A DNA stretch of 29,483 bases from a virus: positions 1-29,483 of the IMG/VR virus record IMGVR_UViG_3300014838_000062; one strand, written 5' to 3'. Position 1 is the first letter of the stretch. Each line of letters opens with the position of its first letter. The notes under the pieces were generated by a model, which was given only the letters and a program-made list of their open reading frames with translations, ran no database searches and was not told where the DNA came from. Shown here piece after piece: positions 6,603-19,558 of the stretch. Position numbers and translations under genes: made by a program.

Positions 6603-6909
6603 GATCCTTGAAGGTATCAAGAATAGTATCTTTACTTCTCAACATGTAGAGGAGATTGCAGAACTTAGAAATCTTATATGCCAAGAGTGTCCTCATATAG
6701 ATAAGAGAGGAAGTATGTGTGCTATGCCTGGGACACAACCATGTTGTAAACTTTGTGGTTGTAATCTCAAATTGAAACACAGATCTCTATCTAGTTCTTG
6801 TGATGATGGTAGGTGGCATGCTGAACTTACTCAGCAGGAAGAAGATGCCCTAGCTGATCAACTAAAAAATAAGTCAAATGATACTAACATTCAAGGAGAA
6901 GAATCATGA
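6562..6909 (+). CDS. Cys-rich zinc-ribbon-like protein
   Basis: A 115-residue protein with a Cys cluster between residues 40 and 80: CQECP, then SMC, then CCKLCGC, and a further SSSCDDGRWH. The CxxC...CxxC spacing suggests one or two bound zinc ions. Residues 1-35 are helical and basic. It overlaps the IHF-like gene upstream by 41 nt and the nuclease gene downstream by 32 nt, so the three are expressed together. A nucleic-acid-binding role is plausible. Small zinc proteins at this position are conserved in crAss-like phages as I recall them, with no known function. Confidence 0.6.
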   Translation: MESSIIRIWKNKGKILEGIKNSIFTSQHVEEIAELRNLICQECPHIDKRGSMCAMPGTQPCCKLCGCNLKLKHRSLSSSCDDGRWHAELTQQEEDALADQLKNKSNDTNIQGEES

Positions 6910-8704
6910 GTATAAAAGTCTTGATGAAGATCTAGACTGGCTTTCTGTAACTAGTTTTGTTAGTTATTTTAAACAACCTTTTGATCCTATTGAACAAGCT
7001 CAAAGATCTTCTAGAAATAAAAGATCTAAATGGTATGGAATGGATCCTATGGAAATACAGTATTACTGGAAAGCGGAAGGTGATAGAGCTTCTCTAATGG
7101 GTACCTGGTATCATTCCCAGAGAGAGAAAGATATTATGGAGTTTACTTCTATAGAAAGAAATGGAGTTACAGTTCCTATTATAAGACCTATCTATAAAGA
7201 AGATATTAAAATAGCTCCTGTACAAATTATTACTAATGGGGTTTATCCTGAGCATTTTGTTTACTTAAAATCAGCAGGACTATGTGGACAATCAGATAGA
7301 GTAGAAGTAGTAAATCACTCAGTGTCTATAAGTGATTATAAAGGATTAGATATAAATACTCCAATTCCAACAAGTGATGGATTTAAGTCTATGAATGATA
7401 TAATTGTTGGTGATAGAATATTTGATGGAAATGGAGAATTAACTACTGTAGATCATATATCAGATATTCATTATAATCCGTGTTATAAAATAACTTTTGA
7501 TACAAATGATCATCTCATATGTGATCATGAGCATAAGTGGGTAATAGCAGAAAGAAAATCCAAGAATGTATATATTGAAACAGAAAGAACAACAACTGAT
7601 ATTTATACTTCTTACCTAAATAAAGAATATATTAGAATTAAATGTTCATTAAGTTTGAATATTAAGGATAAAGAATTATTAATTGATCCTTATGTATTAG
7701 GCGTATGGTTAGGTGATGGATCAAGCAGTACAGGTCATCTTACTAATATGAATGAGCAAATATGGAAAGAAATAGAGAATAGGGGTTATATAATAGGAAG
7801 AGATACTTCTAATGGAGGAAGTGGAAAAGCTCAAGGAAGAACTATATTTGGACTGAGAGCAAAATTAAAAAAATTAAATCTACTTAATAATAAACATATA
7901 CCAGATATTTATATAAGATCATCACATCAACAACGACTTGACCTACTTAGAGGATTCATGGATACAGACGGTTATTATAATAGATCAAGAAATAGGTGTG
8001 TAATGGCAACTACTAAGTTATGGCAGGCAGAAGCAATAATGTCTTTGGTATCTAGTCTAGGAGGTAAACCTACTCTACTAAAAACAATAGTATCTGGATT
8101 TGGAAAAATTAATATTCCAGCTTATAATGTAACATTTAAAAGTATAGTAGAAAATCCATTCCTGTGTAGGAATAAGGACTACTTAATGGCTGCTACAGGA
8201 CATAATGAAAAAGCTATCTATAGATATATTAAAAAAATCGAAAGAGTAAATACAGTACCTACTAAATGCCTATCAGTTGATAGTTCTACTCATACCTATT
8301 TAGCAGGACCATCTTATATAAAAACTCATAATACAAATAAAGAACTAAGGCTTACTGGCTATACTAACTGGGAAGGAGTAACTACTATGATGAACTATCC
8401 AGTTGATCATCTTCCAGACTGTCACCTTACTCATTATGCTCTACAGTTAAGTTTGTATCTTTATATGATTTTAAAACATAATCATGAGCTAAGTCCAGGA
8501 AAACTATCTATAGAACATGTAATCTTTGAGGAAGAAGCTAAAGATGAACATGGATATCCTGTATATAAGAAAGATGCTCTAGGTAACTTTATAGTAAAAG
8601 AAGTAAAAGTATATGAAGTACCCTTTTATAAAACAGAGGTTATATCAATGATAAATTATCTAAGGGATAATAGAGACCTAATTAAAGCTAAGAAAAAACC
8701 ATGA
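6878..8704 (+). CDS. PD-(D/E)XK nuclease (RecB/Cas4-like) interrupted by a class 3 intein
   Basis: The 608-residue precursor splits into a 278-residue nuclease and a 330-residue intein. The nuclease opens with FKEKNHEYKSLDEDLDWLSV. It then shows GTWYHSQRE (RecB-type His motif), GQSDRVE with D140, and SISDYK with D153 and K155. After the intein it resumes at TNKELRL and continues with YALQLSLYLYMI, the QxxxY motif of RecB-family nucleases. Joined, the core reads SDYKTNKEL, a typical active-site strand. The intein thus separates the catalytic D-x-K from the following Thr, so the enzyme should be inactive until spliced. The ATG at 6878 overlaps the previous gene by 32 nt, and its stop overlaps the next start (ATGA). 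Likely role: phage DNA processing near packaging. Confidence 0.85.
   Translation: MILTFKEKNHEYKSLDEDLDWLSVTSFVSYFKQPFDPIEQAQRSSRNKRSKWYGMDPMEIQYYWKAEGDRASLMGTWYHSQREKDIMEFTSIERNGVTVPIIRPIYKEDIKIAPVQIITNGVYPEHFVYLKSAGLCGQSDRVEVVNHSVSISDYKGLDINTPIPTSDGFKSMNDIIVGDRIFDGNGELTTVDHISDIHYNPCYKITFDTNDHLICDHEHKWVIAERKSKNVYIETERTTTDIYTSYLNKEYIRIKCSLSLNIKDKELLIDPYVLGVWLGDGSSSTGHLTNMNEQIWKEIENRGYIIGRDTSNGGSGKAQGRTIFGLRAKLKKLNLLNNKHIPDIYIRSSHQQRLDLLRGFMDTDGYYNRSRNRCVMATTKLWQAEAIMSLVSSLGGKPTLLKTIVSGFGKINIPAYNVTFKSIVENPFLCRNKDYLMAATGHNEKAIYRYIKKIERVNTVPTKCLSVDSSTHTYLAGPSYIKTHNTNKELRLTGYTNWEGVTTMMNYPVDHLPDCHLTHYALQLSLYLYMILKHNHELSPGKLSIEHVIFEEEAKDEHGYPVYKKDALGNFIVKEVKVYEVPFYKTEVISMINYLRDNRDLIKAKKKP
7343..8332 (+). 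mobile_element. Class 3 intein with LAGLIDADG endonuclease (nuclease gene)
   Basis: Residues 156-485 of the precursor. Residue 1 is Gly (GLDINTPIPT), so the usual N-terminal Cys or Ser is absent. The Trp-Cys-Thr set of class 3 inteins is present: HKW in block B (His64, Trp66), CLSVDSSTHTYLAG in block F (Cys309) and KTHN at the C-terminus (Thr328, His329, Asn330), with Thr as the +1 residue. The insert carries a two-motif LAGLIDADG endonuclease: VLGVWLGDG near intein residue 118-126 and LLRGFMDTDG near 201-210, both with acidic catalytic positions. The element should splice itself out and be capable of homing. Confidence 0.85.
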
Positions 8705-9219
8705 TTGTAAATCTCTTTGATATAGAAAATGGAGTTGTTATACCTAGTATGCATGTATATACTCTTAAGACTTTAAAAAATATAATAGATGATTACCCTA
8801 CTAATTATATGAAAGTTTATGAGTATGTATTTTATATGACCTGTCCAGATCCTGATATGAATCCATTCTTTCATTATCCTGAGGAAGATAAAGAGCATAC
8901 TATTCTAAAAGAAATACAAGCTGATTTTTCTACAGAAGATACCAAAATTATAGATGCAATATCTTTCTGTAAAAAACTTTATGAGACACCAACAGCAAGA
9001 GCTTACTGGGGAATAAAAGCTATGCTGGATAAGCTAGCTACTTATATGAGTAATACTTCTATTTCTGCAGGTAGAGATGGTAATGGGCCTTTCTTATTAA
9101 GTGCAGCTAAACAGTTCCAGGATATAAGAGAGTCTTTTAAGGGAGCCTATAAAGATCTTATGGATGAGCAGAAGACTACTACAAGAGGGGGTGCTCATAC
9201 CGCATACGATGCTAAGTGA
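8701..9219 (+). CDS. Conserved crAss-like protein next to terminase (possible small terminase subunit)
   Basis: A 172-residue protein starting MIVNLFDIENGVVIPSMHVYTL. It has an alpha/beta N-terminus with aromatic-rich segments (YEYVFYMTCPDPDMNPFFHYP) and a helical C-terminal half (ISFCKKLYE...ARAYWGIKAMLDKLA) followed by a polar, probably flexible tail. It overlaps the nuclease by 4 nt and the terminase by 4 nt (AAGTGAGTG), so stoichiometric translation is likely. Position just before the large terminase is where many phages encode the small subunit, but I see no clear HTH and the assignment is only a guess from context. Confidence 0.6.
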   Translation: MIVNLFDIENGVVIPSMHVYTLKTLKNIIDDYPTNYMKVYEYVFYMTCPDPDMNPFFHYPEEDKEHTILKEIQADFSTEDTKIIDAISFCKKLYETPTARAYWGIKAMLDKLATYMSNTSISAGRDGNGPFLLSAAKQFQDIRESFKGAYKDLMDEQKTTTRGGAHTAYDAK

Positions 9220-12200
9220 GTGAAGATAGCTACATAACTATTCCAGTATGGGATAAAGGTATTTGGACTCATCAGTCCTTTAAAACTATTGAAGACTTTA
9301 GATGGTTTTTAATTCCCCTACTAAAAGAACCAGGAAAGTACAATTTTGATGAGACATCCAGGATCTTTAATGAGCAAGCTAGAATATGGAATAAAACAAA
9401 AGTATACTGCATAGCTCCCTTTAATAGTAAAGATTATATTACTTACTGGGATGATCAAAAGGAGAGATGTAGATTTGGAGTAATCTTTAAGAGTGAAAAA
9501 GATCTCTGGTATATACCAAGAGATTACTACATGTGGTTGAACTTCTTACCTATTTATGATAAAGAGCAAGCTAGGTATGATTTTCCAAAAGTTAGGGATG
9601 CACAGTATCATATGGCACTCTATGAACACTTAGCAGAGTTACACTATTTACATGTTGCAGTTCTAAAGAAAAGACAGATAGCTTCTGAACAACCTCATTC
9701 AGAACCAATTCTTACAATAGATGGATGGAGAACCATGGGAGATATTGAGATAGGAGATCTATTATGGAATCCAGATGGTACTCTAACAAAGGTCTTAAAT
9801 AAAACTAATAATGGAGTTTCTGAAGTTTACCAATTTGACTTTATAGATGGTAGATCAACTAGATGTGGAATAGATCATAATTGGCTAGTATATGATAGAG
9901 TTCTTAAAAAAGAAAAAGTAATAAATACAAGAGAGTTATTAAAGTTTGGATTATTTAGTTATACAAATGCACCAACTAGATCAGGAAAAAAGGAATATAA
10001 GTCATATAGATATGCCATAAAATATACTAATCCAATAAGCTTTCTTGGAAGTTCTAAGTTAGAAATAAACCCTTATCTACTAGGTTGCTTAATTGGAGAT
10101 GGTAGTATTAAGGGAAATACTGTACAAATAACATCTATGGATATTGAATTAGTAAATTATGTAAAAGATATAGTAGGTTCTGATTATAATGTAATTAGAA
10201 ACTTTACAAAGGGTAAAGCATCAAGGTATGGGATTACTTATAAAAAGAGATTTTCTAAAGAGTGTAAGAAGTATTATAATGGTCAATATGGTTGTAATCC
10301 TATTTCCAGGTCTCTTTTAGAAATAGGATTAAAGAATAAAATTTGTACAGATAAATTTATTCCCCAAGTATATTTAGAATCTACTATTCAAGATAGACTG
10401 GACTTACTTAGAGGATTGATGGATACAGATGGTTATATAAATAGTACAGGAAAAGATATTCATTACACTACTGTTAGTGAACAACTAGCCAAAGATGTAG
10501 CTTATTTAACTAGAAGCTTAAGTATTAAAACAGTAATAGATAAAAAATCAAAAGCTAAGAGTAGTTATAGTGACTACTATAGAGTGCGATTATCTGGACA
10601 TATTCCTTTTAATATTTTTAAACTCACTAGAAAAGCTAATAGATTTAAGAAAAGAAAAGATAGTTTTCCTTTATGTCCTATTATAAATATCACAAAACTA
10701 GACTATTTAGAAGAATCCTCTTGTATAGTAGTAGACAATCCTAATCAATTATATATTACTAAAGATTTTATAGTTACTCATAATAGTTACTTTCATGCTG
10801 CTAAACTTATTAACCAGATCTGGTTTGAAGAAGGACCTACTATGAAAATGGGTGCTTCTCACAAAGACTATATTAATGAGAAGGGAACCTGGAAGTTTCT
10901 AAATGAGTATAGAAGCTTCCTAGATGAGCACACTGCCTGGTATAGACCTATGAATCCAGGAAAAGTAATGATGTGGCAACAGCAGATAGAAATAACCAAG
11001 AGTAATAGAAAGTCACTTAAAGGTAATAAAGGAACTATACAAGGACTAACATTTGATAAAGATGCAACTAATGGTGTAGGTGGACCAGTAAAATACTTCT
11101 TTCATGAGGAAGCTGGAATAGCACCTAAGATGGATACTACCTATGAGTTCTTATTACCTTCTGTAAAGTCTGGACATATTACAACTGGTATGTTCATTGC
11201 AGCAGGATCTGTAGGAGATTTAGATCAATGTGAACCTCTTAAGAAATTTATATTGTATCCTGAGGTAAATTCTATCTATGCAGTAGAGACAGATCTTCTA
11301 GATGATAAGGGTACAATAGGAACAGCTGGACTCTTTATACCAGAGCAGTGGTCCATGCCTCCTTATATAGATCAGTATGGTAATTCTCTAGTAGAAGAAG
11401 CTGTTAAAGCTATAGATGAGGAAAGACTAAAGTGGAAGAAAGAATTAACTCCTGATATTTATCAACTTAGAATATCGCAACATCCTAAGAATATTGCTGA
11501 AGCATTTGCCTTTAGAAAAGCATCTGTATTTCCTACTAATCTATTAATGGCTCAGCAAAGAAGGATCCAGGAGAAAGAATATGGCTATGAGTTTCTAGAA
11601 CTAGATTATGATACTAAAGGTAAAGTAGAATCTAAGTCGTCCAATAGACTTCCTATTAATGAGTTTCCTATATCCTCTAAGACAGAAGATAAGAAGGGAG
11701 TTCTAGTAGTTTGGGAAAGACCAGTTCCTGATCCGGACTTTGGAATGTATTATGCATCTATAGATCCAGTGAGTGAGGGAAGGACAACTACGAGTGACTC
11801 TCTTGTATCTATTATAGTATATAAAAACCCAGTAGAAGTAACTAAGATAACTCCAGATGGTCCAGAGACTTCTATAGAAAGAGACAAGATAGTAGCTACC
11901 TGGTGTGGTAGATATGATGATATTAAACACACTCATGAGAAGCTAGAAAAGATAGTAGAGTGGTATAATGCATGGACAGTAGTAGAAAATAACATCTCTC
12001 TATTTATTCAGCATATGATCTCTAAGAAAAAACAAAGATATCTAGTACCTAAGAACCAGATGTTATTCTTAAAGGACATAGGATCTAATACTAATGTTTT
12101 TCAAGAATATGGCTGGAAAAACACAGGTACTCTCTTTAAGTCTCACTTATTAAGTTATGCTATTGAGTTCCTCAAAGAAGAGTTAGATATAGCAACTAAG

Positions 12201-12518
12201 CCAGATGGAACTATAGTAAAAACCACATATGGCGTAGAGAGAATCCCAGATCCTATGCTAATAGTAGAAATGCTAGCTTATGAAGAGGGACTTAACGTAG
12301 ATAGATTAGTTTCTTTTTGTGCACTTGTAGCTTTTGCTAAAGTTCAGCAGGCAAACAGAGGCTTAAGAAAAAGAGTAATAGAAAGTAAGGAAAACTTGCA
12401 AAAGAACAAAGATCTTTATAAATTGTCCAAGGGAATGTTTACTCATATGGGAGTTCATTCTAAGAAGACAGATCCTATGTATAAGATTAACAGGAGTCCT
12501 TTTAAGAATATTAAATAA
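9216..12518 (+). CDS. terL: Large terminase subunit, interrupted by a class 3 intein
   Basis: ATP-driven DNA packaging motor and headful nuclease. The 1100-residue precursor comprises N-extein 1-157, intein about 158-523 and C-extein 524-1100, giving a mature protein near 734 residues. Motifs: LKKRQIAS joined to SYFHAAKL forms the deviant Walker A loop; YFFHEEAG (E631, E632) is the Walker B strand; YYASIDP (D850), VVENN (E924) and VDRLVSF (D1029) are the three acidic positions of the RNase H-like nuclease domain. The start codon is GTG at 9216 (GTGAGTGAAGAT), overlapping the previous gene by 4 nt. Packaging function depends on intein removal because the insert lies inside the ATP-binding loop. 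Confidence 0.92.
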   Translation: MSEDSYITIPVWDKGIWTHQSFKTIEDFRWFLIPLLKEPGKYNFDETSRIFNEQARIWNKTKVYCIAPFNSKDYITYWDDQKERCRFGVIFKSEKDLWYIPRDYYMWLNFLPIYDKEQARYDFPKVRDAQYHMALYEHLAELHYLHVAVLKKRQIASEQPHSEPILTIDGWRTMGDIEIGDLLWNPDGTLTKVLNKTNNGVSEVYQFDFIDGRSTRCGIDHNWLVYDRVLKKEKVINTRELLKFGLFSYTNAPTRSGKKEYKSYRYAIKYTNPISFLGSSKLEINPYLLGCLIGDGSIKGNTVQITSMDIELVNYVKDIVGSDYNVIRNFTKGKASRYGITYKKRFSKECKKYYNGQYGCNPISRSLLEIGLKNKICTDKFIPQVYLESTIQDRLDLLRGLMDTDGYINSTGKDIHYTTVSEQLAKDVAYLTRSLSIKTVIDKKSKAKSSYSDYYRVRLSGHIPFNIFKLTRKANRFKKRKDSFPLCPIINITKLDYLEESSCIVVDNPNQLYITKDFIVTHNSYFHAAKLINQIWFEEGPTMKMGASHKDYINEKGTWKFLNEYRSFLDEHTAWYRPMNPGKVMMWQQQIEITKSNRKSLKGNKGTIQGLTFDKDATNGVGGPVKYFFHEEAGIAPKMDTTYEFLLPSVKSGHITTGMFIAAGSVGDLDQCEPLKKFILYPEVNSIYAVETDLLDDKGTIGTAGLFIPEQWSMPPYIDQYGNSLVEEAVKAIDEERLKWKKELTPDIYQLRISQHPKNIAEAFAFRKASVFPTNLLMAQQRRIQEKEYGYEFLELDYDTKGKVESKSSNRLPINEFPISSKTEDKKGVLVVWERPVPDPDFGMYYASIDPVSEGRTTTSDSLVSIIVYKNPVEVTKITPDGPETSIERDKIVATWCGRYDDIKHTHEKLEKIVEWYNAWTVVENNISLFIQHMISKKKQRYLVPKNQMLFLKDIGSNTNVFQEYGWKNTGTLFKSHLLSYAIEFLKEELDIATKPDGTIVKTTYGVERIPDPMLIVEMLAYEEGLNVDRLVSFCALVAFAKVQQANRGLRKRVIESKENLQKNKDLYKLSKGMFTHMGVHSKKTDPMYKINRSPFKNIK
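9687..10784 (+). mobile_element. Class 3 intein with LAGLIDADG endonuclease (terminase gene)
   Basis: About 366 residues. Aligned with the nuclease-gene intein, residue 1 is Glu (EQPHSEPILTIDGW); a Ser1 start at 9684 is the alternative. The class 3 Trp-Cys-Thr set is present: DHNW in block B (His64, Trp66, the same numbering as in the other intein), CIVVDNPNQLYIT in block F (Cys346) and VTHN at the end (Thr364), with Ser at +1. LAGLIDADG motifs are LLGCLIGDG and LLRGLMDTDG. The two inteins share layout but differ widely in sequence between motifs, so they are relatives rather than a recent duplication. Confidence 0.82.
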
Positions 12519-13297: not shown

Positions 13298-16200
13298 ATG
13301 GAAGTATTTAATGCTATGCAGATGGTCAAAGGGGCTAAATCTGATGGTAATCGTTTAGGTGAATAACTTGCCGTTCTAGCTAGTAATATCTAGAAGTATA
13401 ATTGGACAAAAACGGGGAAGGCTGTAATGCCAATCCCGTGCTAATACTACAAATTACGTAAGGTTGTAGTACAGTGTAGAGCATAGTAGGTGAATAAATA
13501 TAATCCTACCAAGAGTGTCCAACATCCTTATAGGATGAAAATATATGCCGAGCTTGTAAGAAATAAAATTACAAGAATCAAGGGATAAAAAGCCTTTGAG
13601 ATAACAAGACTGACGTTAATACAGCCCATCCAATTCATACCTAGAGAGAAGAAAGATGAGCAGTGGGTAGCGTGGAATATTGATTGGCAAGAATGGCAAG
13701 GACTTAAACAGCTTAGGAGAAATGCCAGAAGGCTAATGAAGAACTATAAGTTAGCTAAGGGCATTATAGACAAGACTGACTATGTAGTAGAAGAAAACAA
13801 TGAGTATGCCTCCCTAATAGAGACTCTTACTAAAGAAGACTCAGGAGCCCTGGAGTTAAAGTTTTATCCTATTATTCCTAATGTTATCAATACAATGGTA
13901 GCTGAGTTTGCTAAGAGATCATCCTGTATGAACTTTAGAACAGTAGATGAGACCTCTTATAATGAAGAACTTGAGCTTAAAAGACAACAACTAGAAGATG
14001 CTTTAATATCTGATGCAGAAAATAGACTAGCTATTAAGCTTCAAGAGTCAGGTGCAGACCCTAACTCTCCAGAGTTTAAACAACAGATGGATCCTCAGAA
14101 TATTAAATCTCTACCTGAGATACAGGAGTTCTTTACTAAGTCTTATAGAAATGTCCCAGAAGAATGGGCTCAGCATCAGTATAAGGTTGACCAGGAGAGG
14201 TTTGGAATGGAAGAGCTTGAGGAAAGAGGTTTTAGAGATAGCTTAATTACAGACAGAGAGTTCTGGCATTTTAAGATGATGGAGGATGACTATGAAGTAG
14301 AACTCTGGAATCCAGTATTAACTTTCTATCATAAGTCTCCTGAGACAAGATATATCTCCCAAGGTAATGCTGTGGGTAAGATAGAAATGATGACAGTAGC
14401 TGATGTTATAGATAAGTATGGCTGGATTATGACAGAGGATCAACTTAAATCTCTTGAAGCTATTTATCCAGTAAGATCTGCAGGGATGGCAGTACAGGGT
14501 TTCCAGAATGATGGAAGTTACTATGACCCAACTAGATCTCATGAATGGAATACTAATATGCCATCACTAGGATGGAGACAGTATGCTTCTATGTGGGATA
14601 ATATGCAGGTAGGAGGAGACATAGTAAACTGGATTACAAGTGAGTCAGAAGATTACTTTGATCTAGGAACTACTTATTTACTAAGAGTAACTACTGCTTA
14701 TTGGAAGTCTCAGCGTAAGGTAGGACATCTAACTAAAATAGATGAGAATGGTTCAGCTACTCAGAATATTGTAGATGAATCTTATGATGTAACAGATAAG
14801 CCTGAGTATAATACTATACTAATTAAACGCAAGGATAAGTATAATCTAGTCTTTGGTGAGCACATTGACTGGATCTGGATTAATGAAACAATGGGTGGAG
14901 TAAAAGTAGGACCTAATAGACCTAGCTTCTGGGGTATGCCTAACTCAGGTGGAGTAACACCGATGTATTTAGGTATTAATAAAAATACTCCAGGTAGAGT
15001 TCCTTTTCAATTTAAAGGAGATGATAATCTATATGGCTGTAAACTTCCAGTAGAAGGATCTGTCTTCTCAGATAGAAATACAAGATCTACTGCTTTAGTA
15101 GATTTAATGAAACCTTATCAAATAGGATTTAATATAGTTAATAATCAGATAGCTGATATTCTAATAGATGAGCTAGGTACAGTTATCATGCTTGATCAGA
15201 ATGCTCTTCCAAGACATTCTTTAGGAGAAGACTGGGGAAAGAATAATATGGCTAAAGCATATGTAGCCATGAAAACATTTCAGATGTTACCCTTAGATAC
15301 TTCTATTACTAATACAGAGAATGCTATATCTAATACCCATTTCCAGAAACTAGATATGGAGCAGACTAATAGACTTCTATCTAGGATTAAGTTAGGTGAG
15401 TATTTTAAACAACAAGCATTTGAAACTATAGGAATTACCCCACAGAGAATGGGAGCACAGCTTGAGCAGGCAACTGCAACTGGTGCTAATATTGCAATAG
15501 CAACTTCTTATGCACAGACAGAGATGTATTTCATACAACATTCTGATTACTTAATGCCAAGAGTACATCAGATGAGAACAGACCTAGCACAGTACTATCA
15601 GAGTAAAGCTCCCTCCAAGAGACTTCAGTATATCACTACTATGGATGAGAGAAAGAACTTTGAGATTAATGGTACTGACTTAATGCTAAGAGATATCAAT
15701 GTATTCCCAGTAACAGGAGCTAATGTAAGAAATATAGTTGATCAACTTAAACAACTTGCTCTTAAGAGTAATAGTAATGGCACATCTATCTATGATCTTG
15801 CTAGTATTATTAAGTCTGATAACCTTGCTGACATAGATCAGATATTAAAAGACACTGTAGAGAAGCAAGAGAAGCAAAGACAGGATGAACAGCAGCATGA
15901 AGCTGATCTACAGAAGCAACAACAAGATGCAGAGTTACAGAAGCAGAGAGAAGCAGATGCATTTAAAGCAGACCAGAATGAGAAAGATAGACAGTCTCAT
16001 ATCCTGGAAGCTGAAATTAGAGCTGCAGGATATATGGGTATGAAGGACTTCAATGATAATAAACAGTCTGATTATCTTGATGGACTTAAGACTATTCAAC
16101 AAGGTCAACTTTATCAAGGTCAGATGTCTATAGCACAACAGAAGGCTGACCATGCAGAGCAAGCTCACCAGGACAAGATGGACCTGGGAAGAGAGAAGCT

Positions 16201-16336
16201 TATTGCAGAAAAGGATAGAGCTGATAAGAATGTTCTAATTGCCAGAACTAATACTACAGCATCTGAGATAGCTGCTAAGAGGAAACATGAGCTGGATAAG
16301 AAGAAGTTAAGCATTTCTAAGAAGAAGAAAAAGTAG
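13298..16336 (+). CDS. Portal protein, split by a group I intron
   Basis: Exon 1 is 13298-13360 and exon 2 is 13625-16336; joined they encode about 924 residues. Exon 1 begins MEVFNAMQMVKGAKSDGN; the junction reads RLG then PIQFIPREKK, in frame. Without splicing, exon 1 stops at TAA 13364. Exon 2 continues with QWVAWNIDWQEWQGL and NYKLAKGIIDKTDY, the conserved N-terminal pattern of crAss-like portals, so the ATG at 13736 is internal. The body is a large alpha/beta portal. The last 180 residues are a highly charged Gln/Glu/Lys coiled-coil tail ending KKKKK. Role: the dodecameric ring through which DNA is packaged. The gene follows the terminase and precedes the scaffold-like protein. Confidence 0.88.
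13361..13624 (+). ncRNA. Group IA self-splicing intron (264 nt) in the portal gene
   Basis: The 5' site follows U13360 and the 3' end is G13624. Helices I can draw: P1 13358-13362/13368-13372 with a U-G pair at the splice site; P2 13374-13379/13390-13395; P3 13402-13407/13517-13522; P4 13412-13416/13435-13439; P5 13420-13422/13429-13431; P6 13445-13452/13464-13471; P7 13481-13485/13544-13548; a P7.1/7.2 hairpin 13486-13490/13505-13509; P8 13523-13527/13533-13537; P9-type hairpins 13553-13559/13569-13575 and 13580-13583/13593-13596. The AATCCCGTGCTAA element and the AUAUAUGCC P7 strand match the T4 td-type core. No endonuclease gene lies inside it. Confidence 0.88.
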
Positions 16337-17941: not shown

Positions 17942-19558
17942 ATGAGCACTCCAGTATTAAATAATGGCATATTCCTCAGGGACACTAGCTACCAAGCTAC
18001 CTCTCATGTGGATTCTTACCATTTGGTAAACATGTTAAAAACAGCTGAGCCTATGGATTTAGGTCCTGTAGATATTTGGGCAATGGCACAGAAAGTAGAA
18101 ATGCCCCTTTATCAACTATCTTCTTTTGGTGGTAAAAATATCATCATGGTAGATAATGCAAGAGGAGAATACAAATGGCAAACACCAGTTGTACAAGATC
18201 TTCCTTATATTATTGAAGACATCCAACCAGGTAATGCTACCAAAGGTATAGATGGTACTACCTTCCAGATCAAGATTAACAAACGTGAGTTTGGTCATGG
18301 CGATATCCTCACTTATGATAAATATAATGGTGTGGAAATGTATGTAACAGCAGATGATATCATGACTATTGGTGATGGTTTTATCTATACTGTGCAACTA
18401 GTAAATAATGATAACTACAAATATCTAGATAATAAGTTTCTTGCTGGTGGTACCAGGGTATTCAGAAAAGGTTCTGCAAGAGGTGAATATGGAGAAAGGT
18501 TCTCTGATATTAGGACTTCTACAGGATTTAGGGAATTCTATAACTATGTAGGTGGTGCTGAAGCTCACGTTCATTATAGTATTTCTTCCAGGGCTGATCT
18601 TATGATCAAAGGTGGAGTAAACATGGATGGTACAGTTCCTGTAACTGAAATCTGGAGGACATTTGATAAGAATATTGATCCTTCTATTACTTCTTTAGAG
18701 AACATGATTACAGTCATGGGTAAAGAATATGTAAAGAATGCCATTGCAAATGGTAATCTTAACAGGACTTTCTTAACTACTCTTGAAGCAGCTCACCTTT
18801 CTAAAATTGCTACTGACATTGAAACCTACTTGATGTGGGGACATGGTGGTAAGATTAAACAAGATGGTCCAGATGATATGAGGTTATCTGTAGGGTTATG
18901 GAAACAACTTGATTCTTCTTTCAAACGTGTATATAACTACTCAGGATTTAGCTTAGATTTATTTAAAGCTGAGATCTATAACTTCTATGCTGGTAAAGTT
19001 GAATTCCAAGGTCCAGATCCTAAGAGATCTCTGATAGTTCAAACTGGTATTGGAGGTATGAAGCTTGTTAATGAAGCTATTAAGACTGAAGCTGTTAACT
19101 CAGGTTTAGTAATTAATGCTGCTCAGGTAGGTGCTATTACAGGCCAGGGTATGGATTTGAATTATGGATTTGCTTACACTAGCTATGTAATTCCTTTCTT
19201 AGCTAATGTTAAGTTTATCTTAAATCCTGCATTTGATAACTTACATACAAATGATATTGAAAATCCTATTATCAATGGAAGACCTTTATCATCTTATAGC
19301 TTTGTGATCTTTGACGTTACTGACACAGGTAATGATAATATCTTCTTATTGAAACTATCCTGGGATAACCAACTTAAATGGTTCTACCAGAATGGTACTA
19401 TGGATTACATGGGAAGAACACAAGGTTTTCAATCAAATGGTAACTTTAATGGTTATAGAGTTTATATGACTCAAACAATGCCAGCTATCTGGGTAAAAGA
19501 TCCAACCAAAGTACTAAAAATTGTTATGCGTAATCCCATTACTGGTGGAAGTTTCTGA
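17942..19558 (+). CDS. Major capsid protein (HK97 fold, crAss-like)
   Basis: A 538-residue protein in the position after portal and scaffold. It has the N-terminal arm (MSTPVLNNGIFLRDTSYQAT), an aromatic segment VDIWAMAQKVEMPLYQL, and the GEYKWQTP...DILTYDKYNGVEMYVT region. The GSARGEYGERFSDI element and a long C-terminal P-domain follow (ISSRADLMIKGGVN, PIINGRPLSSYSFVIFD, TQTMPAIWVKDPTK). This matches crAss-like major capsid proteins as I know them. Residues 90-177 are duplicated in the stand-alone gene at 12524. Arg is coded by CGT several times here, unlike most genes in the window that use AGA, which fits high expression. Confidence 0.88.
   Translation: MSTPVLNNGIFLRDTSYQATSHVDSYHLVNMLKTAEPMDLGPVDIWAMAQKVEMPLYQLSSFGGKNIIMVDNARGEYKWQTPVVQDLPYIIEDIQPGNATKGIDGTTFQIKINKREFGHGDILTYDKYNGVEMYVTADDIMTIGDGFIYTVQLVNNDNYKYLDNKFLAGGTRVFRKGSARGEYGERFSDIRTSTGFREFYNYVGGAEAHVHYSISSRADLMIKGGVNMDGTVPVTEIWRTFDKNIDPSITSLENMITVMGKEYVKNAIANGNLNRTFLTTLEAAHLSKIATDIETYLMWGHGGKIKQDGPDDMRLSVGLWKQLDSSFKRVYNYSGFSLDLFKAEIYNFYAGKVEFQGPDPKRSLIVQTGIGGMKLVNEAIKTEAVNSGLVINAAQVGAITGQGMDLNYGFAYTSYVIPFLANVKFILNPAFDNLHTNDIENPIINGRPLSSYSFVIFDVTDTGNDNIFLLKLSWDNQLKWFYQNGTMDYMGRTQGFQSNGNFNGYRVYMTQTMPAIWVKDPTKVLKIVMRNPITGGSF

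Follow-up and report, generated by a model that had tools for sequence, protein, structure and literature searches.

A predicted class 3 intein with a LAGLIDADG endonuclease domain in the Walker A loop of an environmental phage terminase

The window that we analysed (the whole 29,483-nucleotide stretch of the IMG/VR virus record IMGVR_UViG_3300014838_000062) contains a gene for a large terminase subunit (TerL) whose reading frame is interrupted at the ATP-binding loop. A preliminary description, made from the letters alone, had interpreted the interruption at 9687-10784 as a class 3 intein, the second in the window. This locus raises the question of what exactly the insert is, where it begins and ends, and whether it is inherited with its terminase or moves between phages.

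The terminase gene and the boundaries of the insert

The host gene (9216..12518, plus strand) is an intact open reading frame with a GTG start that encodes a precursor of 1100 aa, and PHROG 6681 (terminase large subunit) matches its C-extein with an E-value of 2e-53. The insert, for which the coordinates 9687..10784 (plus strand) proved exact, is in frame with this gene and encodes 366 aa (EQPHSEP...FIVTHN), from Glu1 to His365-Asn366. The N-extein (9216..9686, plus strand) ends in ...LKKRQIAS, reaches the Walker A position occupied by Lys in other TerLs, and aligns without gaps with 156 intein-free loci. These loci also define the C-extein (10785..12515, plus strand), whose first residues are Ser(+1)-Tyr-Phe. 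Since no Rfam family or tRNA was detected within the window, there is no sign of a group I intron that could have been mistaken for an intein.

The window sequence by itself leaves two junctions open, with Glu or Ser as residue 1. We searched IMG/VR separately with the N- and C-halves of the terminase, and both halves could be placed in 163 loci. Nothing lies between the halves in 156 loci, which by contig name come from 152 distinct contigs, while the remaining 7 of the 163 have an insert of 498, 1071, 1092 or 1098 bases at exactly the same point, the 1098-base insert being that of the window itself. All 156 empty loci read LKKRQIAS-SY[F/Y] with a gap of 0 (FKKRQIAS in two of them), and RQIASYF is absent from all 156. 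Thus, the last residue of the N-extein is Ser (9686), the intein starts with Glu as residue 1, and Ser (10785) follows it as the +1 residue, so that only the first of the two proposed residues stood; residue 1 is also Glu in every carrier that has this end of the intein. Intein-free relatives with neither RQIASSYF nor RQIASYF at this place had been named as evidence against the intein, and none was found among these loci. Judging from the empty alleles, the mature terminase would read RQIAS-SYF. A junction one residue over, with Ser as intein residue 1 and RQIASYF in the mature protein, is compatible with the window sequence in that Ser stands on both sides, but it is ruled out for practical purposes by RQIAS-SY in 156 of 156 empty loci and RQIASY in none, and class 3 inteins have no nucleophile at residue 1 (PMC5050341). 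The insert is therefore in frame, without counterpart in the homologues and confined to a single exact site, as an intein should be.

When the window terminase is aligned with the TerL of Leptolyngbya phage Lbo-JY46, RQIAS|S corresponds to RRLAK|T. The insertion thus occupies the classic P-loop position between Lys and Ser/Thr, in agreement with the proposed Walker A location. The P-loop of this family is itself deviant (9672-9686 plus 10785-10787): it reads KKRQIAS-S, with Ser where Lys is usual, and is fully conserved in all 156 empty loci.

Splicing and endonuclease domains

Class 3 inteins are defined by the lack of a nucleophile at residue 1 together with Trp at B:12, Cys at F:4 and Thr at G:5 (PMC5050341). 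The TerL intein has Glu1 in place of Cys, Ser or Thr, and it has Trp66 at block B position 12 (9882..9884, in DHNW), Cys346 at block F position 4 (10722..10724, in SSCIVV), which is the predicted first nucleophile, and Thr364 within the block G triplet Thr364-His365-Asn366 (10776..10784), which contains the Asn cyclisation site. All are on the plus strand, as is His64 of block B (9876-9878). When 35 related inteins are aligned, W66, C346, T364, H365 and N366 are the only invariant columns. The Trp-Cys-Thr (WCT) set is thus complete, as previously claimed, and on these sequence features the insert is confidently predicted to be a class 3 intein.

The closest sequences to the TerL intein in the PDB are the mycobacterial class 3 DnaB inteins 6bs8 and 6rix. 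An AlphaFold model (pLDDT 92.8, pTM 0.91), its structure matches and these DnaB inteins place the N-terminal part of the HINT (splicing) domain, with blocks A and B, at 9687..10046 (plus strand, limits approximate). The splicing domain of the model matches 6bs8 with Z 19.5, 1.7 Å rmsd and 30% identity. Over both DnaB structures the splicing fold and the WCT residues are shared (1.7-2.2 Å rmsd, 28-30% identity), but 6bs8 and 6rix are short chains from a helicase host without an endonuclease domain, whereas the window intein includes an endonuclease and resides in a terminase. A two-domain layout is instead shared with PI-SceI (the yeast VMA intein), to which residues 1-366 of the model align over the whole length (Z 28, 3.3 Å, about 18% identical); PI-SceI is a class 1 intein (Cys1). 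The HINT fold with its splicing blocks, the terminal Asn366 and Ser+1 (from alignment, model and empty loci) are further features of an intein.

The middle of the TerL intein encodes a LAGLIDADG homing endonuclease domain (10047..10667, plus strand; intein residues about 121-327), a feature missing from the preliminary description. Pfam LAGLIDADG_3 (PF14528) matches with an E-value of 6e-14 and 52.4 bits, compared with a curated cut-off of 22.5, PF05204 also matches this region, and model residues 121-327 align to I-Tsp061I with Z 15.4. In addition to a profile score above the cut-off, both acidic motifs are present: LLGCLIGDG (motif 1, 10077..10103, plus strand), which keeps Asp138, and LRGLMDTDG (motif 2, 10407..10433, plus strand), which keeps Asp248 in a nearly invariant column. 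From what is known of the LAGLIDADG family, we take these two Asp residues to be of the catalytic type. The pN/pS ratio is 0.39 to 0.42 in the endonuclease and 0.16 to 0.26 in the splicing part, so the endonuclease is constrained, although less so than the splicing part.

Taking sequence and structural model together, we consider it very probable (roughly 0.93) that the insert is a bifunctional class 3 intein, in which a LAGLIDADG homing endonuclease is inserted into a HINT splicing domain. If it behaves like other members of its class, the terminase would be made as a single precursor, Cys346 would attack the upstream Ser-Glu1 bond, and the N-extein would be transferred to Ser+1. Cyclisation of Asn366 would then release the intein and restore the RQIAS-SYF ATP-binding loop. 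The endonuclease would presumably cut the conserved site in intein-free terminase genes of co-infecting phages, and the intein DNA would be copied over into the cut site (homing), while some lineages would already have lost the endonuclease or would lack the intein.

Distribution, precedents and mobility

Homologues of the intein occur in 753 of 50,697 phage records. The class 3 pattern (HxW plus Cys-...-THN) is found in 11 of 12 homologues sampled across the ranking, the exception being a Salmonella phage helicase, although this proportion is no census because the query itself is class 3. The TerL intein query also found 76 loci in viral contigs versus 6 in 84,980 bacterial and archaeal genomes. 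By these sequence counts, class 3 inteins appear to be common in phages, which contradicts the earlier view of an uncommon intein class.

Several TerL inteins have been described before. The TerL of Delta-group crAss-like phages typically has an intein according to Yutin et al. 2021 (PMC7886860), and the likeness to our case consists of inteins in the TerL of crAss-like phages. Where that paper presents example inteins it calls them Hint-Hop, with no splicing class, residue 1 or site given there, and the window phage appears to belong to a different, environmental lineage from the Delta-group phages treated in it. The TerL inteins of cr111_1 and Bacteroides phage DAC15 (Steigviridae, GenBank) are also class 3 (HxW, C, THN), with LAGLIDADG and the Walker A K|S position, but they belong to another intein clade than that of the window, and the precursors are only about 25% identical. 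In mycobacteriophages, the TerL1-a intein lies between the invariant Lys and Thr of the P-loop (Kelley et al. 2016, PMC5050341), and TerL1-c/-e are class 3 TerL inteins (PMC5050341); these are other phages, and the P-loop Lys there contrasts with Ser in the window family (RQIAS|S). The kind of element is therefore already known, and the TerL intein leaves the general picture of inteins unchanged. What it contributes is a class 3 intein whose boundary is fixed by empty alleles, and all three states of a homing cycle at one P-loop site in several lineages of environmental crAss-like phages. As DAC15 is in culture and carries a class 3 intein at the corresponding position of its TerL, splicing could be studied in a laboratory host.

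Three states are found at the TerL site: empty (most relatives), full intein, and a mini-intein that has lost the endonuclease. Besides the window, carriers are the loci L001, L002 to L004 (with identical inteins), L238, a partial L005, and L044/L045. The last two, contigs 7 bases apart over 10.5 kb, have a 166-aa mini-intein without endonuclease. The terminase family has at least 598 members by a C-extein search, which covers divergent inteins less than exhaustively, and carriers of the TerL intein are a small minority of it. On an extein tree of 92 rows the carriers need 4 changes, and the starred branches force 4; an extein tree of 31 rows rejects a single clade of carriers. Carriers are spread over four separate terminase lineages. 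L210 and L199 have no intein although their exteins are 94% identical to those of the intein-bearing L001.

The comparison of intein and extein phylogenies that had been suggested earlier supports mobility, since the trees disagree and the carriers are not one clade. The intein tree joins the window and L001 (100/98) and rejects a grouping of L001 with L044 (p-AU 0.002), which the 31-row extein tree supports (100/98). This conflict is based on five inteins, one of them the L044 mini-intein with 45% of the columns, and the group for the topology test was picked after the trees were seen. It also requires the 31-row extein tree, as the exteins of the five carriers alone do not reject window plus L001 (p 0.09). 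A four-row test could not discriminate, as intein and extein trees alike have L002 and L238 as sisters, and L044 was taken as the fifth row. In this sequence comparison, patchiness and tree conflict together give the pattern expected if a homing element is both gained by transfer and lost, and part of the patchy distribution could come from losses. Next to the L001 intein, compared with L210 and L199, no clear co-conversion tract was seen, only a weak dip in identity just upstream of the insertion.

The main competitor, which we consider unlikely, is a class 3 intein that is immobile here, with an inactive endonuclease, vertical inheritance and frequent precise loss. It would account for the many empty relatives, for the endonuclease-deleted allele of L044/L045, and for an intein identity between the window and L001 (69%) close to their extein identity (68%). 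However, both LAGLIDADG Asp residues are kept and the endonuclease is under purifying selection, the intein and extein trees conflict, and precise loss from a P-loop, which leaves no margin for error, would have to recur many times.

We give somewhat less credence to conditional splicing, a form of post-translational control in which the packaging ATPase would stay inactive until triggered by a signal from the host or the infection. A precursor with an insertion in its ATP site should indeed be inactive, and one class of DnaB inteins from mycobacteria is described as an oxidative stress sensor in PMC6195587. Most close relatives lack the TerL intein, though, which means that it is dispensable. 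A specific version, that host redox or metal state gates activation of the packaging motor through an ATP-site class 3 intein with an internal Cys as first nucleophile, is slightly more doubtful still.

The companion nuclease intein and the placement of the phage

Upstream of the TerL intein, a class 3 intein of 330 aa with Gly1 (7343..8332, plus strand) lies in a PD-(D/E)XK nuclease gene (6878-8704) at DYK|TNKE; in 124 empty relatives of this site, DYK is followed directly by TNKE or a close variant. The TerL insert is thus indeed the second intein of the window. The two genes are 511 bp apart, within the 1 kb originally mentioned, and the inteins 1354 bp apart. Trp is residue 66 in both and the sequences have diverged, also as first described; the two inteins are 31% identical.

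Shared class, proximity and the common position of Trp could suggest that one intein is a recent local copy of the other, and local spread had been proposed. In a tree of 46 inteins, however, the TerL and nuclease inteins are far apart, each grouped at 100% support with the inteins that other phages have at its site, so that each has closer relatives in other phages than in its neighbour. Their carriers also differ: L001 has both inteins, L140 only the nuclease one, and L002 and L044 only the TerL one. Furthermore, the nuclease allele is found in unrelated large phages, and in the 320-kb phage L241 the nuclease intein is 59% identical to that of the window while the exteins are 27% identical. 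With 31% identity between the neighbours besides, a local copy is highly improbable, and the intein tree rejects a duplication between the nuclease and TerL genes. Separate clades, separate sites and independent carriers instead point to two independent site-specific elements.

The nuclease intein has clearly moved horizontally, as intein identity far exceeds extein identity both in the L241 comparison and between L001 and L140 (intein 89%, nuclease exteins 68%, terminase exteins 73%). That these class 3 inteins sort by insertion site and not by genome speaks for phages exchanging them in a site-specific manner.

In mycobacteriophage Dexes, the nuclease intein is met again in a Cas4-type exonuclease, at the corresponding D-Y-K|T position of the active site (VVDYK|GLDLDT...). 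Nuclease-site inteins also occur in unrelated phages of 130-320 kb (L263, L241 and L248 were examined), as a site-specific class 3 lineage in very different phages. Those of L251 and L252, of 248 and 236 aa, have no visible LAGLIDADG motifs and are probably versions in which the endonuclease is missing or replaced.

With regard to the phage itself, the preliminary assignment to Crassvirales agrees with the TerL matches, which are mostly to crAss-like phages, but fits less well with the portal and major capsid proteins (13736-16336 and 17942-19558), for which the closest named phage is the unclassified Lbo-JY46, followed by crAss-like phages and Lightbulbvirus (outside the order according to NCBI). 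Judging from these protein matches, the window phage likely belongs to Crassvirales. Lbo-JY46 is a cyanophage filed only as Caudoviricetes, and its TerL is a distant, intein-free relative; the likeness to it hints that this crAss-like lineage lies outside the groups that infect Bacteroidetes. Between the capsid gene and later structural genes, an open reading frame at 19630-20493 matches PHROG 4645 (endonuclease) with an E-value of 1e-40, and may encode a free-standing homing-type endonuclease.
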